Shown: positions 7,282 through 43,859 of the stretch, piece by piece | Layout: the number at the start of each line of letters is the position of its first letter | Numbering within the stretch: position 1 is the first letter of the stretch | Assembly (NCBI RefSeq): GCF_019977315.1 | Contig: NZ_AP024652.1 | Coordinates: 1,922,001-1,986,000, forward strand | Length of the DNA stretch: 64,000 bases | Origin: Arthrobacter sp. StoSoilB22 | GTDB taxonomy: Bacteria > Actinomycetota > Actinomycetes > Actinomycetales > Micrococcaceae | Direction: 5' to 3' | Notes under the pieces: generated by a model | Told to the model about the DNA's origin: nothing | The model's database searches: none | Seen by the model: the letters and a program-made list of their open reading frames with translations, nothing else | Translations under genes and position numbers: made by a program

Positions 7282-8829
7282 CTATACCTTTTCGGTGGTG
7301 GTCGATGCCTTTTCGAATTCGTTCAGAACGCCGACTTCCTTGGCAGTGCGGCGTTCCCATCGCTTGATGACCTGCGGGACGATGGCTACCAAGATCACCA
7401 GCGAGTAGGCGACGATGGAGAACGGCGAGGAGACCAGCTGGGTGAAATCGCCATCGGCTATGGACATGGCCCTGCGGAGTTGGGTTTCGGCCAACGGTCC
7501 CAGGATCGCCCCGATGATGAGCGGGGCAATCGGAAAACCATACTGCCGTAGGAAATATCCGAGGATGCCGATGATCAGCATGATGTAGACATCGAATACT
7601 GATCCGTTGATGCTGTAGGCGCCGAGCAGCGCGAACGTGGCGATGCCGGCGTACAGGTACGGCGTGGGGATCAGGAGGACCTTGGCCCACAGGCCAACCA
7701 GTGGCAGGTTGAGCAGGAGCAGCATGACGTTGCCGATCAGCAACGCTGCCACCAGACCCCACACGAGCTGCGGTTCCTTTTCCAGCAGCAGGGGACCGGG
7801 CTGCAGCCCGTACTGCTGGAAGGCGACCAGGATGACTGCGGCGGTTGCCGACGTCGGAAGTCCCAAGGTGAGCAATGGCATGAGGGAGCCAGCGGCGTTG
7901 GCGTTGTTGGTCGCTTCCGGTCCGGCGACGCCTTCGATGGCGCCTTTGCCGAACTGCTCGGGATGCTTGGTGAGCTTCTTTTCAAGGGCGTAGGACATGA
8001 AGGTGGGGATCTCGGAGCCCCCCACGGGAATGGCGCCCAGAGGCCACCCGATGACGGTGCCGCGCAGCCAGGCCGGCCAAGAGCGGCGCCAGTCTTCGCG
8101 TGTCATGGTGGCACGCCCCTTGAGTTCCATGAACTTGGGTTTACTTTTGCGCATTTTCGCGGCAAGGAAGATCGCCTCGCCCATGGCGAAGAGAGCAACG
8201 ATCAAGACGACTGTGTCGATGCCGTCGAGCAGCAGGGGAACGCCAAAGGTGAAGCGTGCCGACCCGGATTGGGCGTCGAGGCCGATGATGCCAATGACCA
8301 GGCCGATCCCAACGCTGGTGAAGCCACGTGCGGCGGAAGACCCGAGCAACGCTCCGACGGTCATGAATGCGACCACCATGAGGGCCAGATAATCCGCCGA
8401 GCCCAAGCCGATGGCGATATCCACCACATATGGGGCACAGAATGCCAGCGCCAAAGTGGCGAGGGTGCCTGCGACGAAGGATCCGATGGCGGCCGTGGCC
8501 AGCGCGGCAGCCGCCCTGCCCGCACGGGCCATCTTGTTGCCTTCGATGGCCGTCATCATGGACCCGGATTCTCCGGGTGCGTTCAACAGGATAGATGTGG
8601 TGGATCCGCCGTACATGGCGCCGTAGTAAATACCTGCGAAGAGGATGAATGCGGCCGACGGCGGCATGTTGTACGTGACCGGCAGCAGCAGGGCGATGGT
8701 GAGGGCCGGGCCGATGCCGGGCAGAACACCGACAAAAGTGCCGGCGATGACGCCCAGCAGGGCGAAGAGTAGGTTCTCGGGCGTCGCCGCGACGGCAAAG
8801 CCCTGAATGAGCCCGTTGATTCCTTCCAT
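7282..8829 (-). CDS. tctA: tripartite tricarboxylate transporter, large permease TctA
   Basis: A 515-residue integral membrane protein of the TctA family with about 11-12 hydrophobic segments. It includes the family's conserved early stretch [17 protein letters not shown] (about residues 35-51) and the [14 protein letters not shown] region (about 74-87). Together with TctB and the lipoprotein TctC it imports a carboxylate using the ion gradient. Length is normal. The ATG is preceded by TTAAGGAA at good spacing and lies 12 bp after tctB. Operon order is tctC-tctB-tctA. The substrate cannot be read from sequence; tricarballylate, citrate-like and aromatic dicarboxylates are known family substrates. 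Confidence 0.93.
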
Positions 8830-8841
8830 GGGGAAACTTCC

Positions 8842-9333
8842 TTAAAGGATCCCGGCCAGCACACCCGGAGGCAGGAAGATGCCCAGAGGTCGTGTGAACA
8901 GGAGATAGATGGCAAAGGAGAGCGCGATCGAGGCGACGCCGACGCGCCAGCTGAGCCGGGCACCGAGGGTAACGGCAATGCCGAAGAACGACAATGCGCA
9001 GGCGATGACGTAACCGGCAGGTTCCAGCAGTACGGCGAAGGCAAGGACGGAAGCCAGCAGCATGGCAACGCGGCGTTTGTTCATGGGAAGGGTTGGATCT
9101 ACCAGTTCGCCTTCCTCCGGTGAGGCACTATTGCCTCGGAGCACATCGATGACGACGAAGGCCGATGCGATTGTTAGCAGGGTGCCTATGGCGTACGGCA
9201 TGAACCGCGGCCCTACGTTGCTTGCTGCCACTGGTTCATTGATGAAGGTGGTCCCGACCAGAATGAAGATGCCCGTGGCAAGGGTGAGCCCGGCGAAGAC
9301 GAGCTCACCCTTGTTCTTGACGCTGATGGTCAT
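8842..9333 (-). CDS. tctB: tripartite tricarboxylate transporter, small permease TctB
   Basis: A 163-residue protein with four hydrophobic segments (about 13-32, 41-60, 86-118 and 124-148), typical of TctB in length and topology. Its ATG overlaps the tctC stop (ATGA) and it precedes tctA. The pair TctA/TctB forms the membrane part of the importer. Confidence 0.88.
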   Translation of the reverse strand: MTISVKNKGELVFAGLTLATGIFILVGTTFINEPVAASNVGPRFMPYAIGTLLTIASAFVVIDVLRGNSASPEEGELVDPTLPMNKRRVAMLLASVLAFAVLLEPAGYVIACALSFFGIAVTLGARLSWRVGVASIALSFAIYLLFTRPLGIFLPPGVLAGIL

Positions 9334-10340
9334 TTCAGTCCCAGCGTGGTCAGGATTTCCTGGGTGCTGGTCTGCTGTTCCTCTAGGTCTGCAGCGAACT
9401 TGTCGCTGTCAAGGAATTGATCGGACCAGCCGTTGGTCTTCAGCGTTTCCTTCCAGGTGCTGCTCTGGGACAGCTTGGCGAAAACGTCGGACAGGGCCTT
9501 ACGATCAGCGTCGCTGACACCGGGGGGCGCGAAGATACCGCGCCAATTGACCAAAACTGCGTCAGCGTAGCCTGCGTCAACCACGGTGGGGGCATCGGGT
9601 GCCAGATCGAGGGGTTTGTCCGAAGAAACGGCCAGGATCCGCAACTTGCCTGCCTCGACTTGGTCGGCGAACTCGCCGTAGCCAGCGATTCCGGCAGAAA
9701 CTTTGTTGCCGAGCAGGGCAACGAGTGCTTCGCCGCCGCCGGAGAAGGTGACGAAGTTGACTTCAGTCGGCCTTACGCCGGCATTCTGGACCAGTTTTCC
9801 GCCCCAGATGTGGTCGATTCCGCCCTGGTTGCCGATTGCGATCGGATTTGCGCCCGGGTTGGACTTGAGCGCGGTGAGGAAGTCGTTGAGGGACTTATGG
9901 GGGGACTCCGCCGGGACAACGATGACTTCGTATTCACCGATAAGCCGGGCAATCGGGGTGAGGTCACTGAGCTTGTTCGGGGCAGAGTTGGTGATGGTGG
10001 CCCCAACCAGGGACAGGCCGCCGAGCATGAGGTCTTTGGTCCCGGTTTTCTGGGTGAAGTTCGACAAGGCAACGGTGCCACCGGCGCCTTGGGTGTTGCG
10101 GACCTCGATCTTCTTGCTGAGGTTCTCGGACTTAAGTGACTTCTCGAGAGCGCGGGCCGTCTGGTCGTATCCGCTGCCTGGGCCCGAGGGGGCGTCGATG
10201 GTGAGCTCCTGGGCGACTGAGCTCGCGGTGTTTTGGTTGGGGTTGGTTGCCGCCGGGCCGCATCCGGTCAGCATGATCGCAGCGGCAATGGCTGCACCGG
10301 AACCGGCAAGGAGCCGACGGCGAGGGGGAGTGATCTTCAT
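9330..10340 (-). CDS. tctC: tripartite tricarboxylate transporter, solute-binding lipoprotein TctC
   Basis: A 336-residue binding protein. The N-terminus has basic residues (PPRRRLL), a hydrophobic core and the lipobox MLTGC with C27 as the lipidation site. The mature part shows TctC/BugT features such as the G-G-I-D-H-I-W loop (AIGNQGGIDHIWGG) and a C-terminal helix. ATG at 10340 is chosen because it gives a normal signal peptide and follows GGAAA; in-frame upstream ATGs would add an unusual 19-residue extension. It is first in the operon. An inverted-repeat operator-like site lies at 10396-10438. Confidence 0.9.
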   Translation of the reverse strand: MKITPPRRRLLAGSGAAIAAAIMLTGCGPAATNPNQNTASSVAQELTIDAPSGPGSGYDQTARALEKSLKSENLSKKIEVRNTQGAGGTVALSNFTQKTGTKDLMLGGLSLVGATITNSAPNKLSDLTPIARLIGEYEVIVVPAESPHKSLNDFLTALKSNPGANPIAIGNQGGIDHIWGGKLVQNAGVRPTEVNFVTFSGGGEALVALLGNKVSAGIAGYGEFADQVEAGKLRILAVSSDKPLDLAPDAPTVVDAGYADAVLVNWRGIFAPPGVSDADRKALSDVFAKLSQSSTWKETLKTNGWSDQFLDSDKFAADLEEQQTSTQEILTTLGLK

Positions 10341-10395
10341 TGATTTTCCGCTTTCTTCTGTCATGTCCGTGATGGACGACACAAGCATGCCAACC

Positions 10396-10438
10396 ATTCT
10401 GGTTTTTCACAAGATAAAAAACCAGAATTTGGTTTTTT
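10396..10438. promoter_or_regulatory. AAAAACC/GGTTTTT inverted repeats before tctC
   Basis: Two overlapping symmetric elements: ATTCTGGTTTTT (10396-10407) paired with AAAAACCAGAAT (10417-10428), and AAAAAACCA (10416-10424) paired with TGGTTTTTT (10430-10438). The same half-site recurs at 11581-11618. Likely operator of the GntR regulator encoded between them (inference). Confidence 0.65.
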
Positions 10439-10592: not shown

Positions 10593-11492
10593 TCAGCCCC
10601 GGGGGACCTGGCGGGTTTTCTCGCTGCCGACCGTTGAGAGATGGGCCCGGAGGTGATCCGAGGCGGCCCGCAGTTCGCCAGCCAGCAACAACCGTGCGAG
10701 CTCCACGTGTTCCGCGCATCGCAGGATGGCGCGCTCGGGAACCAGTGCCTGGCGGTATTCAATGAGGCGGCGCAGGCGGTTGATGCGGGCGAGGCCTTCA
10801 ATGAAGAAGTCATTGTTGCTGCATTGGGCGACGGTCTCGTGGAAGCGGGTGTTCAGGTCGAACAATTCAGCGCCGGAGATGGTCCAGATCCTGCCATCAA
10901 CGAGTTCCTGCTGTTCTGCCATACGCTGGCCGATGCCCTCGCGGTCAAGGACGAACGTATCCTCCAGGATGGCAGCCGGTTCCACGACGAGCCGGAAGTG
11001 ATAGCTGTCCCGGTATGACTTGACAGATGTTAGAACCGGGAGGAATTCCCACCCATAGCCTGGGAGCGGGGCAATCCAGCCTTCTGCAGAGATCCTCCTG
11101 AGCAACTGCCCGACCTGGGCTCGTGTCAGGCTGTAGCGGCGCATGAGCCCGTTCTCCGTGACCCTCTCCGGCAAGGCACCGTTCAGCCGGTCCTCGGCAA
11201 TCTGCATGTAGGCGCTGTCGTCATCGCCGGCGTCGGTCGTGCCGGCGAGGGCAACGTCAGGCCCGGACCTGGCAACGACGTAGCCGCCTCCCTCGGTCCG
11301 CGCCAGGGTCCCTTCGGCCAGCAGGCCCTGAAGGGCCTTCCGGATGGGGGAGCGGGAAACCCGGAGGCGCTCGGCAAGGAAGCGCTCGGTGATCCGGTGG
11401 CCAAGTGCCGGGCGCTCGTCCCGCAGGTACGTGCGGATCTCGGTTTCGATCATGGATGTCAGTTCCGTGCTCCCGGCGACAGTCGTTGTCAC
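10593..11492 (-). CDS. GntR-family regulator with FCD-like domain
   Basis: A 299-residue regulator. An N-terminal winged helix (about residues 10-75) carries the GntR recognition pattern FLAERLRVSRSPIRKALQGLLAEG, and a C-terminal all-helical FCD-like ligand domain (about 150-290) includes FHETVAQCSNN. It is longer than typical FadR-type members because of an extra region at about 75-150 that itself looks like a second, degenerate winged helix (GLMRRYSLTRAQVGQLLRRI). GTG start with GAAGGGAA upstream. It lies between tctCBA and the lactonase operon and probably controls both through the shared inverted repeats. Confidence 0.87.
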   Translation of the reverse strand: MTTTVAGSTELTSMIETEIRTYLRDERPALGHRITERFLAERLRVSRSPIRKALQGLLAEGTLARTEGGGYVVARSGPDVALAGTTDAGDDDSAYMQIAEDRLNGALPERVTENGLMRRYSLTRAQVGQLLRRISAEGWIAPLPGYGWEFLPVLTSVKSYRDSYHFRLVVEPAAILEDTFVLDREGIGQRMAEQQELVDGRIWTISGAELFDLNTRFHETVAQCSNNDFFIEGLARINRLRRLIEYRQALVPERAILRCAEHVELARLLLAGELRAASDHLRAHLSTVGSEKTRQVPRG

Positions 11493-11686: not shown

Positions 11687-12568
11687 ATGTCCGATGTGAT
11701 CCATCGCGTAGTGCCTGAGGGGTCGATCGACACTCACGTGCATGTCTTCGATCCAAAGTGGTTTGCCTACGCCGACGATCGCGACTACACCCCGGCCGAG
11801 GCCGATCTTGAAGCCGTTCAGGCCTACGGTGACAGCATTGGGCTTGACCGCTTCGTCTTCGTCCAGCCCAGTGTTTACGGCACTGATAACTCGGCCCTGT
11901 TGGCGGCCTTGAAACTCCACGGAGCCGACCGCGCACGGGCCGTGGCTGTCGTGGGACCGGAAACCTCAAACGGTGAACTCGATGTACTCCATGCAGCCGG
12001 CGTCCGAGGGCTGCGGCTGAACGTTAAATCGAACCCCGACGGCGGCAAAGCGGACATCCGCGATCCGTTGAGGGCGCTCATTGCCCGGGCTGCGCCGTAC
12101 GGCATGGCCGTGGAAATCTTCTGCAGCGCTTCGTCGCTGGCTGGAGCATCCGACATCATTGCCGCCTCGCCTGTACCGGTCATCCTGGACCACTTCGGCG
12201 GTATCAAAGTCGCCGAGGACGGGAGAGCCTCCGGCGCTGAGCAGGTCATCGAGCTGTTGGGCCTGCCCCATATATGGGTGAAGCTCTCAGCACCGTATAG
12301 GATCGCCGCCATCGGGACAGGATCACCGGCCATCCCCGAGATTGTGCAAGCCCTGGTTAAAGCCCGGCCTGAGCGCCTCGTCTGGGCCTCCGACTGGCCA
12401 CACACCGGCGGCGGCGCAGACCGAAAACGCCGGGGACCGGACGCCGTCGAGCCCTTCCGGGACATCGACGACATCGCCGAAACCACCGGCTTTGTGTCCT
12501 GGCTCAAGTCCGAACAGACTGCACGCCAAATCCTCGTGGACAACCCCTCCACGCTTTTCGACTTCTAA
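11687..12568 (+). CDS. amidohydrolase-2 family lactonase (LigI / galactarolactone-isomerase-like)
   Basis: A 293-residue TIM-barrel hydrolase. H17 and H19 in DTHVHVFDP form the N-terminal metal motif. Other family marks are VFVQPSVYGTDNSALL, VILDHFGG and the C-terminal WASDWPHT with the catalytic aspartate. Relatives hydrolyse 2-pyrone-4,6-dicarboxylate or isomerise/hydrolyse aldarolactones and muconolactones, so a cyclic carboxylate is the likely substrate. The ATG has GAGGAGAG upstream; the open frame is longer but the extension is promoter/operator DNA. First gene of the 11.7-17.5 kb operon. A paralogue with a Tat signal is at 18156. Confidence 0.85.
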   Translation: MSDVIHRVVPEGSIDTHVHVFDPKWFAYADDRDYTPAEADLEAVQAYGDSIGLDRFVFVQPSVYGTDNSALLAALKLHGADRARAVAVVGPETSNGELDVLHAAGVRGLRLNVKSNPDGGKADIRDPLRALIARAAPYGMAVEIFCSASSLAGASDIIAASPVPVILDHFGGIKVAEDGRASGAEQVIELLGLPHIWVKLSAPYRIAAIGTGSPAIPEIVQALVKARPERLVWASDWPHTGGGADRKRRGPDAVEPFRDIDDIAETTGFVSWLKSEQTARQILVDNPSTLFDF

Positions 12569-12593
12569 CCCCAAAACTATTCCGAGGACGACG

Positions 12594-13949
12594 ATGTCTA
12601 CCCAAAAGACCCGCACTGAATCCCAACCACCACAAACCAAAAGCGGCATCGTTCCCAAGGGCCGTGCCTTCTGGTGGAAGCTCATGGACACCGACGTCGG
12701 CATCATTCCGCTGCCGGTTTACCTCCTCCTGATCATCCTGCTGATTGCCTTTACCGCGACCAAGGGCGTCACCGGGGAACTGGCCATGGTCATCGCCATC
12801 TCCGCCGTCTTTGCCTTCACTCTTGGAGAGATTGGTAATAGGCTGCCTCTGGTCCGGCAGATCGGCGGAGCCGCCATCTTGGTGACCTTCATTCCCTCGC
12901 TGCTGGGCTACCTGGGCCTGGTGCCGGAACCAATGAAGAAAGCCGTTGGCGACTTCTTCTCCTCCAGCAAGGTCCTGAACCTCTTTATAGCCGCCGTCAT
13001 CGTCGGCTCGATCCTCAGCATGGATCGCCGCATCCTGATCAAGGGCTTCCTGAAGATCTTCGTCCCGCTCCTGGCCGGCAGTGTCCTGGCCATCGTCTGC
13101 GGAACCGCCATGGGGACCCTCCTCGGGCTGGGCCTGCATGACACCTTCTTCTTCACCGTTGTCCCGATCATGGCCGGCGGCGTCGGTGAAGGAGCGATCC
13201 CGCTGACCATCGGCTACTCCCAGATCCTCGGCATGGACCAAGGCGAAGCGTTGGCCCGTGTCCTGCCCCCGATCATGGTCGGAAACCTGACCGCCGTTCT
13301 GCTGGCGGGCATCTTGTCCCTGATCGGCAAGAAGTTCCCGCATTTGACCGGCAACGGCCAACTCCAGCCCGGCAGCAGCGACATGCTTGACGAAACGGAA
13401 GAGGAAAAGCCCGCTGGTCTGGACCTTAAGGCGATAGCAGCTGCCGGCATCACCGCCGTCTGCCTCTACCTCCTCGGCGTTCTGGCCTTCGAACTGTTCG
13501 ACTGGCCAGCACCTGTGGTCATGCTCTTCGCAGCTGTGCTGCTCGCCTTGGCTCACGGTGTTTCACCTCGTATCCAGGCCGGCTCCAAGGTCGTCTACAA
13601 GTTCGCCCTCACCGCTGTGGCATTCCCCATCTTGTTCACTTTCAGCCTCATTCTGACCCCATGGCAGAGCCTGGTAGCAGGTTTCGCCCCGGCCAACCTG
13701 ATCACCATTGTGACCACCGTGACGGCCATGGTCGGCGGCGGATTCCTCGCCGCGCGCTGGGTCAAGCTGCACCCGGTTGAGTCAGCCATTGTCACCAGCA
13801 CGCACAGCGGCATGGGAGGGGCGGGCGACATCGCCATCCTGACCGCCAGCAACCGCATGCGTCTGATGCCCTTCGCCCAAATCGCAACCCGCATCGGCGG
13901 CGGGCTCACCGTAGCCGGCGCACTGATCCTCATCAGCATCATTCACTAA
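12594..13949 (+). CDS. 2-hydroxycarboxylate transporter family (CitS/MleP-like) symporter
   Basis: A 451-residue membrane protein with about 11-12 hydrophobic segments. It has both re-entrant GGxG motifs of the 2HCT family: GGVGEGAIPLTIGYS in the middle and GMGGAGDIAILTASNR near the end. They are followed by LMPFAQIATRIGG, which holds the conserved arginine that binds the carboxylate in characterised members. It likely imports a 2-hydroxy di- or tricarboxylate such as malate-, citrate- or tartrate-like acids. The start follows CCGAGGACG and lies 25 bp after the lactonase. The operon region therefore has two independent carboxylate importers. Confidence 0.9.
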   Translation: MSTQKTRTESQPPQTKSGIVPKGRAFWWKLMDTDVGIIPLPVYLLLIILLIAFTATKGVTGELAMVIAISAVFAFTLGEIGNRLPLVRQIGGAAILVTFIPSLLGYLGLVPEPMKKAVGDFFSSSKVLNLFIAAVIVGSILSMDRRILIKGFLKIFVPLLAGSVLAIVCGTAMGTLLGLGLHDTFFFTVVPIMAGGVGEGAIPLTIGYSQILGMDQGEALARVLPPIMVGNLTAVLLAGILSLIGKKFPHLTGNGQLQPGSSDMLDETEEEKPAGLDLKAIAAAGITAVCLYLLGVLAFELFDWPAPVVMLFAAVLLALAHGVSPRIQAGSKVVYKFALTAVAFPILFTFSLILTPWQSLVAGFAPANLITIVTTVTAMVGGGFLAARWVKLHPVESAIVTSTHSGMGGAGDIAILTASNRMRLMPFAQIATRIGGGLTVAGALILISIIH

Positions 13950-13996
13950 CGCCCTCAATAGACTTCCCGACCACGCACTTCCCGAAAGGCACCACC

Positions 13997-15082
13997 ATGA
14001 AGATCCTCGTACTCCCCGGCGACGGCATCGGCCCCGAAATCACCGAAACCACCCTCGACGTCCTCAATACGGTGGACCAGATCCACAACCTCGGACTGGA
14101 ATTCGAACAAATGGACATCGGACTTAAGAGCCTCGCAGAGCGGGGCACCACCCTCCCGGACGCGGTCATGGAACGTATCCCGCAGGTGGACGGCGTCATC
14201 CTGGGGCCGGTCTCCCACTACGAATACCCCACCAAGCAGGAGGGCGGATTCAACCCCTCAGCCGAGTTGCGCATCCAGTTCGAACTCTTTGCCAACGTCC
14301 GTCCCTGCCGCTCCCGCGATGGCCTGAGTATACTGCGCACCCCGATGGACTTGATCATCGTGCGTGAGAACACCGAGGGCTTCTACTCCGACCGCAACAT
14401 GTTCGCCGGTACCGGAGAATTCATGCCTGACGAGAACATGGCCCTGAGCGTCCGCAAGATCACCGCCAAGGCCTCTGAACGTGTGGCCCGTGCCGCCTTC
14501 GAAATCGCGCAGGGCCGGAACAAGAAAGTCACGGCCGTCCACAAGGCCAACGTCGTCAAGCTTTCCGACGGCCTGTTCCTCCGCGAAGTCCGCAAGGTTG
14601 CAGCTGAGTTCCCTGACGTCGAGCTCGAAGAACTGATTGTCGACGCAGCAGCAGCGTTACTGATCCGCAAGCCCCACGATTTTGATGTCATCGTCACCAC
14701 CAACATGTTCGGTGACATCCTCTCCGACGAAGCATCCGAACTCTCCGGAAGCCTCGGTCTTGGTGGGTCACTGAACGCCGGCGACAACATTGGTGTGGCT
14801 CAGGCCCAGCACGGCTCGGCCCCCGACATTGCCAACAAGGGCATCGCCAACCCGACCTCCCTGATCCTGTCGGCAGCCATGCTCCTGGACTGGCGAGGAC
14901 GTCGCGACAACAACCAAGCACTCATCGCCGCCGCAGCAGACATCGAAACCGCTGTCGAAACGGTCCTGGCCAACCCGCTGACCCGCACCGGCGACATCGG
15001 TGGCTCCCTCGGTACCCGCGAATTCGCGGACGAAGTCATTGCTACCCTGCCCCGGGAACGCGTCGCACAGGCAACCGCCTAA
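13997..15082 (+). CDS. isopropylmalate/tartrate-type beta-hydroxyacid oxidative decarboxylase
   Basis: A 361-residue member of the isocitrate/isopropylmalate dehydrogenase family. It begins with LPGDGIGPEITE, has the substrate segment RENTEGFYSD at about 119-128 and the metal-binding aspartates in TNMFGDILSDEASEL, and carries the nicotinamide-nucleotide loop GSAPDIANKGIANP. The family uses Mn/Mg and NAD(P) to oxidise and decarboxylate 2-hydroxy-3-carboxy acids. Surroundings (2HCT transporter, lactonases) favour tartrate-like or substituted malate substrates over leucine biosynthesis. Starts 48 bp after the transporter with AAAGG upstream. Confidence 0.87.
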   Translation: MKILVLPGDGIGPEITETTLDVLNTVDQIHNLGLEFEQMDIGLKSLAERGTTLPDAVMERIPQVDGVILGPVSHYEYPTKQEGGFNPSAELRIQFELFANVRPCRSRDGLSILRTPMDLIIVRENTEGFYSDRNMFAGTGEFMPDENMALSVRKITAKASERVARAAFEIAQGRNKKVTAVHKANVVKLSDGLFLREVRKVAAEFPDVELEELIVDAAAALLIRKPHDFDVIVTTNMFGDILSDEASELSGSLGLGGSLNAGDNIGVAQAQHGSAPDIANKGIANPTSLILSAAMLLDWRGRRDNNQALIAAAADIETAVETVLANPLTRTGDIGGSLGTREFADEVIATLPRERVAQATA

Positions 15083-15121
15083 CCGCTGGCGCGCGATACC
15101 TAATCGAAGGAAAAGAACAAC

Positions 15122-16498
15122 ATGATCTCCACGATTAACCCGGTGACCGGTGAAACCACGGCCACTTTCCCCGCTCACACCACAGCTGAGGTTCAGGCCA
15201 AGCTCGACGCTGCCGTTGCAGCGCAGAGCCAGTGGCGCCTCGTTCCCGTGGAAGACAGGGTCCAGGTTCTGCGGAACACGGCCAAGGTCCTGCGTGAAAA
15301 CAAGGCTGAATACGCCGCCCTGATCACCCTGGAAATGGGCAAACCGATCACCGAAGCCGAGGCCGAGATCGAGAAGTGTGCGCTCACGGCCGAGTACTAC
15401 GCCGAAACCGCGCCCGCGCACCTGGCACCGGAACAGATCGCCTCTTCCGCCGCTTCCTCCGGCGTTGTTTTCGATCCCCTTGGGGTGGTGCTGGCGATCA
15501 TGCCGTGGAACTATCCCTTCTGGCAGTTCTTCCGCTTCGTGCTCCCTGCCGTTGCCGCCGGTAACGGCGCGATCTTGAAGCACGCCAACAACGTCCCGCA
15601 GGCAGCCCTTGCCGTTCAGGACATCATGGAACAGGCCGGACTCCCCGAGGGGCTGTTCGCTACCGTGCTGATCGAATCCTCCGAAGTTGCCGCCCTGATC
15701 GCCGATGACCGCATAGCGGCCGTGACGTTGACCGGTTCGACGCAGGTTGGTTCCATCGTGGCATCCCAGGCCGGTGCCGCCCTGAAAAAGCAGGTCCTGG
15801 AACTCGGCGGCTCGGACCCGTTCATTGTCCTGGCCGACGCCGACGTCAGAGCAGCAGCAAAAACGGCTGTCAAAGCCCGGTTCACGAACAACGGCCAGTC
15901 CTGCGTGAACGCCAAGCGGTTCATCGTCGACGAGAAAATCGCCGATGAATTCGTGGCCGAGTTCACCGCCAACACCAAGGCCCTGATCGTGGGGGATCCC
16001 ACAGACCCGGCGACAACCATAGGCCCGATGGCAAGAGAAAATCTGCGCACCGAACTCCACGACCAGGTCACCCGCACCTTGGCCGGCGGTGGCCAGCTCG
16101 TGCTGGGCGGGAACGTCGTGGACGGACCCGGTTACTACTACGAGCCGACCATCATTGATCATGTCAAGCCCGGCCAGGCAGCGTTTGATGAGGAAACCTT
16201 CGGTCCCGTTGCCGCGATCATCCGGGTCTCCTCCACCGAGGAAGCCATCACCCTGGCGAACCAGTCCGAGTACGGCCTCGGCGCCGCGCTGTGGACCCAG
16301 GACACCGCCGCCGCCGCGGCGGAACTGCTCCCAAAGATCGACGCCGGTGCCGTGTTCATCAACGGCATGGTCGCCTCAGACCCCCGGCTGCCCTTTGGCG
16401 GGATCAAGAAGTCCGGTTACGGCCGCGAACTCGGTTCCTACGGCATCCGCGAATTTACCAATATGAAAACCTTCTGGACCGGCCCCGCCACCAACTAA
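15122..16498 (+). CDS. NAD(P)-dependent aldehyde dehydrogenase (succinate-semialdehyde type)
   Basis: A 458-residue ALDH of the GabD-like subfamily. Visible are the MPWNYPFWQ oxyanion region, the general base glutamate in LELGGSDPF and the nucleophilic cysteine in NNGQSC. ALDHs of this kind oxidise short semialdehydes to acids, and here it probably follows the decarboxylating dehydrogenase. Start ATG at 15122 with GAAGGAAAAG upstream. Confidence 0.9.
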   Translation: MISTINPVTGETTATFPAHTTAEVQAKLDAAVAAQSQWRLVPVEDRVQVLRNTAKVLRENKAEYAALITLEMGKPITEAEAEIEKCALTAEYYAETAPAHLAPEQIASSAASSGVVFDPLGVVLAIMPWNYPFWQFFRFVLPAVAAGNGAILKHANNVPQAALAVQDIMEQAGLPEGLFATVLIESSEVAALIADDRIAAVTLTGSTQVGSIVASQAGAALKKQVLELGGSDPFIVLADADVRAAAKTAVKARFTNNGQSCVNAKRFIVDEKIADEFVAEFTANTKALIVGDPTDPATTIGPMARENLRTELHDQVTRTLAGGGQLVLGGNVVDGPGYYYEPTIIDHVKPGQAAFDEETFGPVAAIIRVSSTEEAITLANQSEYGLGAALWTQDTAAAAAELLPKIDAGAVFINGMVASDPRLPFGGIKKSGYGRELGSYGIREFTNMKTFWTGPATN

Positions 16499-16506
16499 GG
16501 ACAGCA

Positions 16507-16965
16507 ATGACCCGCATACCAACAGCCCTTTCCTCTGTGGACGCCGTGATCCTCCGCCCCAAGGAACTGCCCCGCAAAGACCGCGGAAACGGCGCCTCCA
16601 CTGTTCCCCTGGTCGGGGCACACTTGGGCTCCACCACGTTCCTGAACGGCATCACCACGTTCGCTCCCGGCGCCGCAATCGGCCACCACTCCCACAACTG
16701 CGTTGAATCCGTTGCCGTCATCGAAGGCACCGCCTACGTCGACATCGACGGCACGGAACACTACCTGGAGACCTACGACACCACCTTCGTGCCAGCGAAC
16801 ATCGTCCACCGGTTCAGGAACGCATCCGAGACCGAGGAGATGAAAATCCTCTGGACCTACGCCTCCATCGACGCCACCCGCACCATGGCCGGAACCACCG
16901 ACCGAACCCGCATCGACGAAGAACAAGCCAACCAGCCACCCGTCATGGAAGGAGTCCACGCGTGA
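16507..16965 (+). CDS. cupin-domain protein
   Basis: A 152-residue single-domain cupin. The first cupin motif reads GHHSHNCVESVAVIEGTAYVDI (metal-binding His residues and Glu) and the second FVPANIVHRF. Such proteins bind a metal and act as isomerases, small dioxygenases or ligand sensors. Position between ALDH and the ABM gene, with a 4-base overlap to the latter, makes it part of the catabolic operon. Exact reaction unknown. Confidence 0.82.
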   Translation: MTRIPTALSSVDAVILRPKELPRKDRGNGASTVPLVGAHLGSTTFLNGITTFAPGAAIGHHSHNCVESVAVIEGTAYVDIDGTEHYLETYDTTFVPANIVHRFRNASETEEMKILWTYASIDATRTMAGTTDRTRIDEEQANQPPVMEGVHA

Positions 16966-17261
16966 TCCACGAAATCGCCACCCTCACCATCACCCCAGGC
17001 TTCGAAGCAGACTTTGAAGCTGCGGCCGCCAAAGCCGTGCCGCTATTCCAGAAAGCCAAGGGTGCTCTCAGCTGGCGCTTGGAACGGACCATCGAAACCC
17101 CCAACGAATACACCCTCACCGTCGGCTGGGAAACACTGGAGGACCACACCGTGGGTTTCCGGGAATCCGCAGATTTCCAGCAATGGCGCGAACTCGTCGG
17201 GCCCCACTTCGCCGCACCCCCTCAGGTCAAACACACCCAACACACCTACCAAGGATTCTGA
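16962..17261 (+). CDS. antibiotic-biosynthesis-monooxygenase (ABM) fold protein
   Basis: A 99-residue ferredoxin-like protein of the ABM/dimeric alpha-beta barrel family: IATLTITPGFEADFEAA opening, WRLERTIETPNEYTLTVGWETLEDH middle and a C-terminal FAAPPQVKHTQ segment. Homologues serve as small oxygenases or dimeric barrel isomerases in catabolic operons. Starts with GTG whose last two bases belong to the TGA stop of the cupin gene. Confidence 0.8.
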   Translation: MIHEIATLTITPGFEADFEAAAAKAVPLFQKAKGALSWRLERTIETPNEYTLTVGWETLEDHTVGFRESADFQQWRELVGPHFAAPPQVKHTQHTYQGF

Positions 17262-17263
17262 CG

Positions 17264-17512
17264 GTGGCAACAGTCGTACCCGCTACCGCCCCGGGAGGGA
17301 TCCTGCCGACCGGACGGATCGTCAGGGACTGGGCACAGTTGGCCGAAGGGTCGTGGGTTGAAGTCGTGAGCGAAACCGAACCCTTGGTGTACGCCCGCGT
17401 CGATGCTGTGTCACCGGATGGATCCATCATCTGGCTGGTCACGGCAGGCACCGGCCTGCGCACCCTGCACCTGGACACCGATCTCATCACCCTCTATCTC
17501 CACACCCCATAA
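17264..17512 (+). CDS. small hypothetical protein, end of operon
   Basis: An 82-residue soluble protein starting with GTG directly after the ABM stop. It is rich in beta-forming residues (WVEVVSETEPLVYARVDAV, IIWLVTAGTGLRTLHLD), suggesting a small beta-barrel. I do not recognise it. It is followed by the operon terminator. Confidence 0.55.
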   Translation: MATVVPATAPGGILPTGRIVRDWAQLAEGSWVEVVSETEPLVYARVDAVSPDGSIIWLVTAGTGLRTLHLDTDLITLYLHTP

Positions 17513-17516
17513 CGCA

Positions 17517-17556
17517 ACAGGGGATGCCCGGCCAGTCAGCCTGAGGCATCCCCTGT
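17517..17556 (+). terminator. operon terminator hairpin
   Basis: Perfect 12-bp arms ACAGGGGATGCC and GGCATCCCCTGT, followed by CCTTGTT. It closes the 11.7-17.5 kb operon. Confidence 0.8.
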
Positions 17557-17616
17557 CCTTGTTAACGCTCATCACGGTTAACCCTCGTCACGCCGCCGCA
17601 TATACAAAGGAGCTCC

Positions 17617-18020
17617 ATGACCATCGTCGCCGGATACGTCCCTACCCAGGAAGGCGCCGCAGCCCTGGACTACGCCATCGCGGAGGCCAAAAAGTCAGGC
17701 AGCCTGCTGGTTGTCGTCAACTCCTCACGGGGCACGACTCTAGTGGACCGAAACTACGCAAGCCCGGAAGAAGTGGACGATGTCGAAGAGCGCCTCGCCA
17801 GCGGAGGTCTCGACCACATGGTTCTCCAACCCGTACGAGGCCAGGACCCCGCCGACGAAGTCCTCGACGCAGCCGAAAGACACAACGCCGAACTGATCGT
17901 CATCGGCATTCGCAGCGCACGCCCGTGGGCAAACTCATCATGGGCAGCACTGCTCAGCGCATCCTTCTTGAAGCCTCTTGCCCGGTCATGGCGGTCAAAG
18001 CAGGCTGGCGAGTGGACTGA
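17617..18020 (+). pseudogene. universal stress protein (UspA), single-base frameshift
   Basis: The first 100 residues are a normal Usp fold (TIVAGYVPTQEGAAALDYAI, ending HNAELIVIGIRS). The expected ending (SPVGKLIMGSTAQRILLEASCPVMAVKAG, nucleotide-binding G-2x-G-9x-G-S region) is present but one frame over. A single C appears to be missing at about 17914-17918. Read in the original frame the product would run on to 18159 as nonsense. AAGGAG precedes the ATG. Either a recent mutation or a sequence error. Confidence 0.8.
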
Positions 18021-18155
18021 CCACATCGGCGGCCGTATCGCTTCAGCTGCATCATCAACGGCCCGGCCCCGATTGGGACCGTTTCAGCACGTCCATAGCC
18101 AGAACCGCCTTCACTGCCTGCGCACTATCCAGTCATTACTCAAAGGAGAGAGAAC

Positions 18156-19148
18156 ATGATCCAACGCGCCCCGCGGACAGCCGCAGCAAAAACCCCGTTG
18201 CCCCGCCGTGTCGTCGTCCAAGGCATCGTGGCCGGAGCGGCAATAGTGGCGTTTGGCTCCACGGCAGCGCAAGCATCCGCTGACAGGGAAACACCGTTTT
18301 CGGCCGGAAGAGGACGGGCCCGATACAAGGTTCCCGGACAGGCCACGGACGCGCATATGCACATCTACGACCCGGTCAGGTTTCCATATCCCTTCCCGGG
18401 AGCCACACCACCGCCGAGAGCAACTGTCGCAGACTACCGGCTCCTGCAAGAACGAACCGGAACTAAGCGCACCGTAGTGGTGACCCCCTCAAACTACGGC
18501 ACAGACAACCGCTGCACTCTTGAGGCAATCGGTCAGCTCGGCCTCCGCAGCGCCCGCGGGATCGCGGTCATTGACGACAGCTTCTCCACTGCCCAACTCC
18601 AGGATCTGCACCAGGCTGGCATCAGGGGCATCCGATTCAACCTCACCCGCCCAGGCGGCGCGGGAGCCGAACTCATCCGCTCCTTGGCCGCCCGGATCGC
18701 CCCGCTGGGATGGCATGTACAAATCCACATGAGCGCCGAAGGGATACTCGAAAACTTGAAAAGCATCAACGATCTGCCTACCGACCTGGTCATTGACCAC
18801 ATGGGCCGCATCCCTGGGTCAGCAGGAACATCCCACCCCGCCTTTGAGGCCATCACGAGACTTCTTGATGGAGGCAAGACGTGGGTCAAGCTCTCCGGGG
18901 TCTACCACGAGTCCCAGGACGGGCCGCCCACGTACGCCGACCGTGGGGCCATCGGCGCCGCATTCGCCCGGTACGCCCCAGACCGCATGGTCTGGGGAAG
19001 TGACTGGCCTCATCCCACAGCATCCCGCGGAGAAGTCCCGATGCCCGACGATGCAGCCATGCTCGACATGTTCGCCAACTGGGTGCCGACCCGGCAGGAA
19101 CGCAAACGCATTCTGGTGGACAACCCAGAGAAGCTCTACGACTTCTAG
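18156..19148 (+). CDS. Tat-exported amidohydrolase-2 lactonase paralogue
   Basis: A 330-residue amidohydrolase with H67/H69 in DAHMHIYDP, VVVTPSNYGTDNR, VIDHMGR and WGSDWPHP. It is clearly related to the gene at 11687. Unlike that one it has an N-terminal extension with twin arginines (LPRRVVVQG, R17-R18), a hydrophobic stretch and an AQA cleavage-like site, indicating Tat export. The best guess is an extracytoplasmic lactonase or isomerase opening a cyclic acid before import. Strong ribosome site AAAGGAGAGAG. Followed by a hairpin terminator. Confidence 0.85.
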   Translation: MIQRAPRTAAAKTPLPRRVVVQGIVAGAAIVAFGSTAAQASADRETPFSAGRGRARYKVPGQATDAHMHIYDPVRFPYPFPGATPPPRATVADYRLLQERTGTKRTVVVTPSNYGTDNRCTLEAIGQLGLRSARGIAVIDDSFSTAQLQDLHQAGIRGIRFNLTRPGGAGAELIRSLAARIAPLGWHVQIHMSAEGILENLKSINDLPTDLVIDHMGRIPGSAGTSHPAFEAITRLLDGGKTWVKLSGVYHESQDGPPTYADRGAIGAAFARYAPDRMVWGSDWPHPTASRGEVPMPDDAAMLDMFANWVPTRQERKRILVDNPEKLYDF

Positions 19149-21132: not shown

Positions 21133-22671
21133 TTATCGGCGGGATCCGTTTGACGGACCAGGGCCAGTCGTCTCCGGGGAGGCTGCCTTTGCTTCGATCT
21201 CCGCCACGCGTTCTCCTCGGGTCTTCTCACTCAGCTTCTTGGACGGAAGAAAGATGATAGCGAGGACGGTGCAGATGGCCAGCGGGACAGAGGACATGAA
21301 GGCATTCGCGGCCCCGCCCGCGTACGCTTCTTGGACGATTCCTCGGAGGGGGCTCTGCAAGGGAACCGATGTCGGTGATACGGGTGATGTCGACCTCGGC
21401 TGCGTTGATCCCAGCAGCATCCAGGTGTGCCCGGTTGTCGAGGACGATGGACTTCGCCTGCCAAGTAAGGACCGCTCCGAGCACTGTGACTCCGAAGGTG
21501 CCGCCGAGGCTCCGGAAGAAGGCCACCCCGGCGGTGGCCACGCCGACTTCGCGAGGGTCGACGTTGGCCTCTGCCATGAGGACGAGATTTTGCATGATGC
21601 ATCCGATTCCTATGCTTACCAGCGCCATGTAGGCCCAAAGGAAGGTCATTGGTGTTTCCGTTCCGATCGTCCCCAGAAGTGTGGTTCCGATCAGAAGGGA
21701 TGATGCGCCGCCAACCATCCATGGTTTCCAGTTCCCCGACTTGCTGATGAGGGCGCCGATAACGGTTGAACTGACTGTTAGTGCTATTACCTGAGGGAGT
21801 GCTATGAGGCCGGATTCTGTGGTGGAGGCACCTCGGGCAAGCTGGAGGTACTGGCTCATGAAGACTGCTGTGCCGTAGGTCGCGATTCCTACTGAGAGGC
21901 TTGCGATCACGGTGAGCACGAATCCTTTGTTCCGGAACAGTGTCAGGGGAATGATCGGTTCCTTCGCCCGTGCTTCCACGAGTAGGGCGAGGACCAGAAT
22001 GAGTGCCGACCCCCCCCGGACAGGAGGGCTGATGTCCAGGAGATCCATTCGAACCCGGAGCCTCCCAATGAGGCCCATACGAGTAGTCCCGATACTCCGG
22101 CGCAAATAAGCAGCGCCCCGGCGTAATCGATGGCGACGGATCCCCCTTGCCTGGCAGGCAGCTTAAGGGTCAGTAGGACGACGATGAGTGAGACAACCGC
22201 GACCGGGATGGTTGCGAGGAAGTTCCAGCGCCAGCCGAATACGTCGGTGATTAGGCCGCCGAGAAGCGGCCCCCCGATAGTTCCCACTGCCATGACCGCC
22301 CCGAACAATCCCATGTACTTTCCACGATCGCGCGGGCTGATGATTTCAGCCAGAACAATCTGGGTAAGCGTGAGCAGGCCGCCCGCTCCCGCACCCTGGA
22401 CAATCCTTCCTGCGATCATTGTTGTGGGTTCAAAGGCGATTCCAGCCACTGCTGATCCGACGATGAAGATGCCCAGGGCGGCCACAACAAGTCCTCTTCG
22501 GCTCAGCAAGTCAGCCAATTTGCCCCACACGGGCGTTGTGATGGTGATGGCCAAGAGTGAGCCGGTGACCATCCAGGTAAGGGTGGATTGAGTTCCACCG
22601 AGGTCAGCAACGATGCGGGGCAGCGACGTGGAGACTATCGAGCTGGAGAGCATCGCGACGAGCAAACCCAT
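21133..22671 (-). pseudogene. DHA2-type MFS transporter (14 TMS), two frameshifts
   Basis: Three consecutive frames give one drug/H+ antiporter-like protein. The first (22671-about 22018) holds the N-terminal half with PRIVADLGG, GKLADLLSRRG and the antiporter motif C-like GPLLGGLI. The second (to about 21350) contains the middle and late helices. The third (to 21133) ends AYAGGAANAFMSSVPLAICTVLAIIFLP and a charged tail. The switches fall at C8 on the plus strand (22010-22017, one G short on the coding strand) and at G5 (21348-21352, one extra). A normal N-terminus is also missing: an in-frame stop lies shortly upstream of the first ATG. It follows the SDR gene on the same strand. Confidence 0.8.
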
Positions 22672-42941: not shown

Positions 42942-43859
42942 ATGTTCGTCAAGAATAGGCGTAGCAATCTCCGTGGAGGAGTAGCCTTGATCGCAGTCGC
43001 GGCGATGCTGGTCACCACCTCTGCGTGTGGCAATGACTCGTCTTCGGCCTCGCAAACTACTACCAACCAGTCCGCGCCGCTTTATGAGAAGCTGCCAGCT
43101 TCAGTGAAGAAGGCCGGCGAGATCGTCGTGGCTTCGCCGTTGTCCAACGCCCCTTATATCTACACCGAATCCGACGGCAAGACGACGAAGGGCATCGTCC
43201 CGGAACTCGCCAAGGCGCTTGAACCGGTGCTTGGGGTCAAGTTCAGATTCGTCAACACCCCCTTCCCTGGCCTGATTCCCGGTCTTCAGGCGCAGAAGTT
43301 CGACATGATCTGGGGCGTAGTCACTGACACTAAAGAACGTGAAAAGATCATCGACTTCGTCGACTACCAGAAGGATGGGGCTACGTTCCTGGTGCGCGCC
43401 GGAAACCCGAAGAACATTTCGGACATGATGAGCATCTGCGGAAACAAAATCTCTTCATTGTCAGGATCGACGCAAACGAAGTTGCTAGAAAAAGAGTCGG
43501 AGAATTGTGTTGCCGCCGGCAAGCCTCCTATGGAGATCAAACTCTATGACGGTGCAGCCGAGTCGCAGCTAGCCGTTCAGAGCGGCAACGCCGACGTGTT
43601 TTTCACGGGCCTCGGTGCCGGCTTGTATGCGGAGAGCACTGCACCCGAAAAGTTTGAAGTAGTCGGCGACGTATATCAGGACCAGTTGTTCGGCGCCGGG
43701 TTCGCGAAATCGAATACGGAGCTACGTGACGTGTTTCAATCGGGCATCAAGAAACTCGTTGATGATGGATCGTACGTCGAGGTCTTCAAGCAGGGGGGCC
43801 TCGAACGACTTGCCCTTTCTGGCTCCTCGGACGTCACAGTCAACGGCGCAGCTGAGTAG
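42942..43859 (+). CDS. polar amino-acid ABC transporter, solute-binding lipoprotein
   Basis: A 305-residue family 3 binding protein. Signal peptide with lipobox TTSAC (C29). The mature part has VASPLSNAPYIYTESDGKTTKGIVPELAKAL and FDMIWGVVTDTKEREKIIDFVDY, the usual binding-pocket landmarks, and two cysteines at about 167 and 188 that could pair. First of three importer genes. It is probably induced with the pathway through the operator 90 bp upstream. Ligand: an amino acid or amino-acid-like compound. Confidence 0.9.
   Translation: MFVKNRRSNLRGGVALIAVAAMLVTTSACGNDSSSASQTTTNQSAPLYEKLPASVKKAGEIVVASPLSNAPYIYTESDGKTTKGIVPELAKALEPVLGVKFRFVNTPFPGLIPGLQAQKFDMIWGVVTDTKEREKIIDFVDYQKDGATFLVRAGNPKNISDMMSICGNKISSLSGSTQTKLLEKESENCVAAGKPPMEIKLYDGAAESQLAVQSGNADVFFTGLGAGLYAESTAPEKFEVVGDVYQDQLFGAGFAKSNTELRDVFQSGIKKLVDDGSYVEVFKQGGLERLALSGSSDVTVNGAAE

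Follow-up and report, generated by a model that had tools for sequence, protein, structure and literature searches.

Candidate catabolic cluster for lactone-forming, citrate-like acids in Arthrobacter pairs an unsignalled amidohydrolase with a predicted exported one

Two amidohydrolase genes, here called AH1 and AH2, lie in one organic acid cluster within a 64,000-nucleotide stretch of the Arthrobacter sp. StoSoilB22 genome (contig NZ_AP024652.1, positions 1,922,001 to 1,986,000; hereafter the window). We propose that this cluster serves the catabolism of a citrate-like hydroxytricarboxylate in equilibrium with its gamma-lactone, and that the lactone would be opened on both sides of the membrane. 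From the sequence comparisons reported here, we put the probability of this reading at roughly 45%. An earlier note on this DNA had described the two enzymes as lactonases next to TctC-type and 2HCT importers; Pfam searches identify TctC, GntR/FCD, 2HCT, Iso_dh, Aldedh, Cupin_2, ABM, and Usp genes as neighbors. Below, the Iso_dh protein is called isocitrate dehydrogenase (IDH)–like and the Aldedh protein a succinate-semialdehyde dehydrogenase (SSADH)–type aldehyde dehydrogenase (ALDH).

Results

AH2 is a putative substrate of the twin-arginine translocation (Tat) system. Its N-terminus (PRRVVVQGIVAGAAIVAFG...AQA) has the form of a twin-arginine signal, with the twin arginine, a hydrophobic stretch, and an A-x-A motif, and TatC is encoded in the StoSoilB22 genome. 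When this N-terminus was shuffled, just 7 of 20,000 shuffles equaled the real one in combining RR and A-x-A with an equally or more strongly hydrophobic stretch. RR and A-x-A with a hydrophobicity of at least 1.2 were found in 3 of the 42 open reading frames (ORFs) of at least 250 amino acids in the window: AH2, TctC, and an ORF on the plus strand at 42942-43859, which we record as a further protein passing this simple test. The AlphaFold model of AH2 gives residues 1 to 36 a predicted local distance difference test (pLDDT) score below 50 and places the first barrel strand at residues 64 to 68. AH1 has no Tat signal, even if its frame is extended to the furthest upstream start, at 11405. Shuffles, Tat tests, and the extended reading of AH1 thus bear out the earlier description of one unsignalled and one twin-arginine-signalled enzyme, both of which occur in this one cluster.

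Predicted export signals occur in both amidohydrolase lineages. A formal Tat test, which omits A-x-A and uses a hydrophobicity of at least 1.2, was applied to 37 hand-picked amidohydrolases (the proteins of loci L060, L075, and L102 were left out). Ten passed: AH2 and the proteins of L020, L021, L082, L087, L092, L100, L114, L115, and L117, with those of L021 and L117 being near-identical; the L111 protein failed. Eight rhizobial loci combine an IDH-like gene with genes for an Asp/Glu racemase (AspRac) and OtnK. Six of these encode an AH2-type amidohydrolase, and all six proteins are Tat-signalled (L021, L082, L087, L092, L100, and L117), with twin-arginine motifs that vary among them; the other two loci, L028 and L079, hold no amidohydrolase. 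In Roseomonas (L020), it is an AH1-type protein that carries the Tat signal, and the AH1-type proteins of Microvirga, Aquabacter, Cupriavidus, and G230 (a second genome of the same family) have none by the formal test. The earlier note had suggested that a cyclic acid is opened outside the membrane. This is a reasonable reading, because a Tat-signalled amidohydrolase recurs with such gene sets (six of six in the rhizobial loci, and in Roseomonas), but the several unsignalled AH1-type proteins mean that it is no fixed rule.

Both proteins belong to Pfam family PF04909 (Amidohydro_2) and have a TIM-barrel fold. AH1 (293 amino acids) matches the family at 5e-36 with 125 bits and AH2 (330 amino acids) at 5e-49 with 168 bits, against a gathering cut-off of 26.4. 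They were the only proteins found when the 4.55-Mb StoSoilB22 genome was searched with AH1 (E ≤ 0.001; 17 candidates scored), and by an arithmetic estimate the chance of a second match falling within 7.5 kb on either side of the first is about 0.3%. The two had been called paralogues. Being 37% identical members of one family, they are so in a deep sense, but in a midpoint-rooted tree of 36 amidohydrolases, most of them drawn from loci retrieved by IDH searches, they fall in separate supported clades and are not recent duplicates. AH1 groups with seven amidohydrolases of IDH-bearing loci (99/98). AH2 groups with rhizobial, Methylobacterium, Roseomonas, and Paraburkholderia proteins (99/95) and with Protein Data Bank (PDB) entry 4mup, which we take to be the Agrobacterium D-galactarolactone isomerase Atu3138; this last sits on a very long branch (2.53) of the 11-row clade, so its placement is unsure. 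The 2-pyrone-4,6-dicarboxylate (PDC) lactonase LigI (PDB 4d8l) groups with amidohydrolases of other family members (L005, L010, and L013; 100/97), in a clade that holds neither AH1 nor AH2. Unsignalled amidohydrolases about 34 to 36% identical to AH2 were also seen in other genomes of the family (L005 and L007 to L013).

LigI is the nearest PDB fold to the AlphaFold models of both enzymes (mean pLDDT 89 for AH1 and 83 for AH2). When aligned with it, both keep the HxH motif, the DH-motif histidine, and the catalytic aspartate (LigI D248, which is mutated in PDB entries according to their names). We take R124, R130, and R217 to be the carboxylate-binding arginines of LigI, and this set is incomplete in both proteins. 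R124 has an equivalent in each, and R130, as aligned, in neither. The R217 position is R205 in AH1, an arginine shared by all 10 rows of the AH1 alignment, and H251 in AH2, where it adjoins a poorly modelled loop. Scores against the NCBIfam model for 4-sulfomuconolactone hydrolase (NF042924) are 152 and 168 bits for AH1 and AH2, below its curated cut-off of 500.

The two dehydrogenases give clues to the substrate. The nearest solved relatives of the IDH-like protein are homoisocitrate and isocitrate dehydrogenases. It reaches the cut-off of none of the 17 NCBIfam families listed, including those for isopropylmalate and tartrate dehydrogenases (leuB, 265 of 353 bits; TTC, 225 of 470 bits). It keeps the substrate arginines of isocitrate-type enzymes, which presumably bind the 2-hydroxycarboxylate. 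At what we take to be the gamma-carboxylate site, it has N-x-S where isocitrate dehydrogenase 6ltf has S-x-N, so that the polar residues are kept. The SSADH-type ALDH is nearest, among solved structures, to succinate-semialdehyde dehydrogenase 4it9 and Sad, and misses the SSADH equivalog cut-off (best NF006915, 557 of 730 bits). According to PMC7510979, W135, R139, and S419 contact the carboxylate of succinate semialdehyde in SSADH. In the alignment to 4it9, the StoSoilB22 enzyme keeps all three of the contacts given there. Among its relatives, the window protein included, the tryptophan and arginine are present in 26 of 26 and the serine in all 25 that could be read.

Judged by gene content, the set is a recurring module in Actinomycetota and Pseudomonadota. 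Among 245 genomes of the family (StoSoilB22 included), only G230 has another AH1 relative at 1e-40. Its locus L017 carries TctCBA, GntR, AH1, 2HCT, IDH, ALDH, cupin, and ABM genes in a matching arrangement, with identities of 42% for AH1, 65% for 2HCT, 79% for IDH, 70% for ALDH, 77% for the cupin, and 56% for ABM. A second G230 locus, L018, joins ALDH, cupin, and ABM genes to a CitMHS-type carrier, an Ldh_2-like gene, a GntP-type carrier, and a 7-bladed-lactonase-like gene. Across 394 genomes of the class, the IDH-like protein is found at 1e-110 in three (StoSoilB22 included) and AH2 at 1e-60 in StoSoilB22 only. Beyond the class, plasmid matches and a contig scan (best 80 of at least 561 relatives) gave loci in Roseomonas, Microvirga, Aquabacter, Cupriavidus, Shinella, Ensifer, rhizobia, Nonomuraea, and others.

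Within the close IDH clade (25 loci), clustering counted cupin in 15, GntR in 15, SSADH in 14, TctC in 13, TctA in 12, ABM, Ldh, and a TIM barrel in 8 each, amidohydrolase in 6, and aconitase in 4. These counts are lowered by contigs that end inside loci, and BLAST labels add a cupin in L046. The closest families to the TIM barrel are hydroxypyruvate and 2-oxotetronate isomerases, whose cut-offs it does not reach. Among the 23 loci with both cupin and SSADH at the identity thresholds chosen, IDH occurs in 19, TctA in 11, aconitase in 6, and a lactonase-family gene in 10 (amidohydrolase in 8, 7-bladed lactonase in 2, SMP-30 in 1, one locus having two). Seventeen of the 19 IDH-bearing loci are the window itself or came from a search with IDH; of the six module loci retrieved otherwise (L017, L018, L027, L029, L030, and L117), two have IDH. 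The Cupriavidus locus L019, with cupin, SSADH, IDH, and amidohydrolase, missed the module cut because its SSADH is 49% identical. Since most loci were retrieved by searching with IDH or cupin, and some of the contigs are short, the counts characterize the module rather than test it. Citrate carriers were seen in module loci. PrpF-type and TcuAB genes stand mainly beside a more distant IDH group, with a TcuA-like gene in L047 of the close clade.

The eight rhizobial loci form a variant of their own. An iron-type ABC permease is present in seven (all but L100), several also have RraA, AcnA, SSADH, or cupin genes, and L021 and L117 carry TpiA, which suggests a related, more hydroxylated acid whose breakdown ends in dihydroxyacetone phosphate. 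Separately, four loci (L035, L046, L049, and L063) share one protein family near the IDH gene; its L035 member is a PF00144 serine hydrolase, which could free the acid from an ester.

The table gives the features of the cluster. Window ORFs were read at about 8 to 24 kb, and functions beyond the family-searched genes were judged by eye.

Table 1. Features of the StoSoilB22 cluster, in window coordinates.
Feature	Position	Strand	Basis
TctA	7282..8829	-	translation; 48% to ORF at same place in L017
TctB	8842..9333	-	gene order; 32% to ORF at same place in L017
TctC binding protein	9330..10397	-	PF03401
GntR/FCD regulator, divergent from AH1	10593..11492	-	Pfam; syntenic in L017
AH1, putative intracellular lactonase (PF04909, no signal)	11687..12568	+	Pfam match; clade 99/98; LigI-like fold
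2HCT-family 2-hydroxycarboxylate carrier	12648..13949	+	PF03390 9e-127
IDH-like protein, isocitrate/isopropylmalate dehydrogenase family, proposed oxidative decarboxylase	13997..15082	+	PF00180 2e-96
SSADH-type aldehyde dehydrogenase	15122..16498	+	PF00171
Cupin_2 protein, module marker	16501..16965	+	Pfam match
ABM-domain protein	16962..17261	+	PF03992
Universal stress protein (Usp) gene, frameshifted	17617..18159	+	Pfam; translation
AH2, putative extracytoplasmic lactonase (PF04909, Tat-signalled)	18156..19148	+	Pfam match; Tat signal; LigI-like fold
Predicted Tat signal peptide of AH2 (~40 residues)	18156..18275	+	A-Q-A cleavage site picked by eye

On the plus strand, the order is AH1, 2HCT, IDH-like, SSADH-type ALDH, cupin, ABM, a short unnamed frame, Usp, and AH2; the minus strand carries GntR and then TctCBA. 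TctA and TctB were assigned by translation, gene order, and position in L017, without a family search. The 2HCT carrier scores 424 bits against the PF03390 gathering cut-off of 26.2, and is below the NCBIfam cut-off for ccs (389 of 549 bits). The StoSoilB22 cupin is 45 to 81% identical to 12 proteins from other loci. TctC has a Tat-type signal followed, by eye, by a lipobox-like LTGC, and may also leave via Tat. The usual C-terminal part of Usp lies in another frame, ending at 18020. This gene may be linked to the importer, because a homologue directly follows TctA in L121. A ribosome-binding-site-like AAAGGAG precedes the AH2 start, so that AH2 may be made apart from the putative operon. Promoter-like sites numbered 0 (shuffled mean 1.6) and terminator-like sites 2 (shuffled mean 6.3). 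Farther along, an MFS-like transporter at 21227-22671 on the minus strand is split in two overlapping frames, probably by a frameshift (by eye).

Discussion

In the proposed pathway, AH2 would act outside the membrane, opening the gamma-lactone of a citrate-like hydroxytricarboxylate, and the 2HCT carrier or TctABC would import the opened acid. When isocitrate or hydroxycitrate closes into its gamma-lactone, the ring takes in the 2-hydroxyl. 2HCT carriers transport 2-hydroxycarboxylates, and we place AH2 outside because the group that they recognize would appear only after ring opening. AH1 would be needed inside, since lactone may enter by TctABC or re-form there. The IDH-like enzyme would then oxidize the 2-hydroxyl and remove the 3-carboxyl; the cupin and ABM proteins, elsewhere also the isomerase-like TIM barrel, would rearrange the 2-oxoacid to a C4 semialdehyde; and the SSADH-type enzyme would oxidize this to a C4 dicarboxylate. 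A C6 substrate would thus be shortened first to a C5 2-oxoacid and then to a semialdehyde acid of four carbons.

The residues of the IDH-like protein, the ALDH contacts, and the aconitase, citrate carrier, PrpF, and TcuAB neighbors of related loci together favor a citrate-like hydroxytricarboxylate. The leading candidates are hydroxycitrate lactone, which would give malate, and isocitrate lactone. Either fits better than the aldarate-lactone, pyrone, or muconolactone substrates that the earlier note thought plausible, which these clues and the placement of AH1 and AH2 outside the LigI clade leave less supported. Homocitrate lactone was considered as a further candidate, because the nearest solved IDH relatives include homoisocitrate dehydrogenases. 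A paraconate/itaconate route (hydroxymethylsuccinate to succinate semialdehyde) was dropped, since the IDH-like enzyme keeps the arginines that presumably bind a 2-hydroxycarboxylate. It is rather doubtful that the module extends to a widespread, undescribed pathway for 2-hydroxycitrate-type lactones (hibiscus acid, garcinia acid, and relatives), in which opening outside by the Tat-exported amidohydrolase and import by a carrier would be followed by conversion to 3-hydroxy-2-oxoglutarate by the IDH-like enzyme, to malate semialdehyde by the cupin, ABM, and isomerase proteins, and onward by the SSADH-type enzyme. For it speak the isomerase-like TIM barrel in other module loci and OtnK/OtnC in some; hydroxypyruvate and 2-oxotetronate isomerases act on 3-hydroxy-2-oxoacids.

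Several observations weigh against a citrate-like substrate opened on each side of the membrane. The proposal is weakest on the identity of the substrate and on how the 2-oxoacid would become a semialdehyde; for this conversion, no decarboxylase of a known kind was recognized among the ORFs read by eye at 8 to 24 kb. If the acid were isocitrate, the resulting 2-oxoglutarate would need neither SSADH nor cupin, and the rhizobial OtnK/OtnC variants point to a substrate more hydroxylated than citrate. AH1 and AH2 may prefer different lactones, because they have R205 and H251, respectively, at the LigI R217 position. AH2 has no match in G230 at 1e-45, and between it and the operon lie some 136 bases as well as the frameshifted Usp gene. 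Amidohydrolases occur in only 8 of the 23 module loci, and L022 and L023, of the distant IDH group, have TcuAB and PrpF-type genes without SSADH or the module cupin. Furthermore, that AH1 clusters with proteins of IDH loci provides no independent test, since IDH searches supplied the loci behind most tree rows.

The strongest competitor, which we still hold to be somewhat unlikely, is that AH2 came by horizontal transfer, as an exported hydrolase acting on a substrate of its own, and simply ended up beside the cluster, leaving AH1 alone in the pathway. In favor of this, AH2 is confined to StoSoilB22 among the 394 class genomes and missing from G230 at the thresholds used, a frameshifted gene lies upstream of it, and its pocket residue differs. 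The best 40 plasmid relatives listed for it are 40 to 50% identical and come from Proteobacteria, and among six of their loci that we inspected (L111 to L116), none has an annotated IDH and three have RraA and SMP-30 genes. However, the six Tat-signalled rhizobial relatives of AH2 sit with IDH-like, AspRac, and OtnK genes, five of them also with SSADH or cupin, and the two StoSoilB22 amidohydrolases found by the AH1 search lie together.

The assignments to LigI/PDC, 4-sulfomuconolactone, and aldarate routes were lowered after cut-offs, tree, and neighborhoods had been compared. In an aldarate-lactone route, AH2 would resemble galactarolactone isomerase and the cluster would feed on glucaro- or galactarolactones, as the presence of 4mup in its clade and among its nearest folds might suggest. 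Given the unsure placement of 4mup, we consider this very unlikely; no aldarate dehydratase was recognized by eye in the 8- to 24-kb ORFs, where no dedicated search was made, and we know of no place for an IDH-type decarboxylase in the known aldarate route. Less probable still is a pyrone or muconolactone route from aromatics, of the LigI or 4-sulfomuconolactone hydrolase type. LigI is indeed the nearest solved relative of both amidohydrolases, and 4-sulfomuconolactone hydrolase is their sole NCBIfam match, but the scores are far under the cut-off, both proteins lie outside the LigI clade, and R217 is not kept in AH2. Similarly, no ring-cleavage gene was recognized by eye in those ORFs, again with no dedicated search.

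Within the open-access literature searched, no description of the gene set was found, in line with the earlier impression of an unfamiliar pathway; this is weak evidence of novelty. If the citrate-like reading is true, the cluster would represent a catabolic pathway for lactone-forming citrate-like acids that spans two or more phyla and extends to plant-associated bacteria. It would also be an example of lactone opening before import, enabling the use of a hydroxy-acid carrier, and would allow naming of those amidohydrolase, IDH-like, cupin, and ABM branches that reach none of the specific NCBIfam cut-offs applied here.

Among known systems, LigI resembles AH1 and AH2 in its fold, HxH motif, DH-motif histidine, and catalytic aspartate; it differs in clade and, relative to AH2, in having R217 at the H251 position and in lacking the export signal, and no gene of the PDC pathway was recognized by eye near AH1 and AH2 in the 8- to 24-kb ORFs. 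Atu3138 (presumably 4mup) shares a fold with AH2 and is placed, with uncertainty, in its 11-row clade, but is about 30% identical, on its very long branch, and aldarate pathway genes were not recognized by eye at the StoSoilB22 cluster. The tricarballylate/aconitate and citrate uptake systems (TctABC, TcuAB, PrpF, and AcnA) have the same transporters and are neighbors in related loci; the difference is that TcuAB, PrpF, and AcnA were not recognized among the window ORFs read. The L-ascorbate pathway of Ralstonia uses a 2-carboxy-L-lyxonolactone hydrolase and a PdxA-type oxidative decarboxylase. The StoSoilB22 cluster would follow a similar logic, with an amidohydrolase opening a carboxylated lactone before a dehydrogenase-family enzyme decarboxylates the product, but its proposed decarboxylase is IDH-type rather than PdxA-type, it has the SSADH, cupin, and ABM set, and its putative lactonase AH2 is predicted to be exported.

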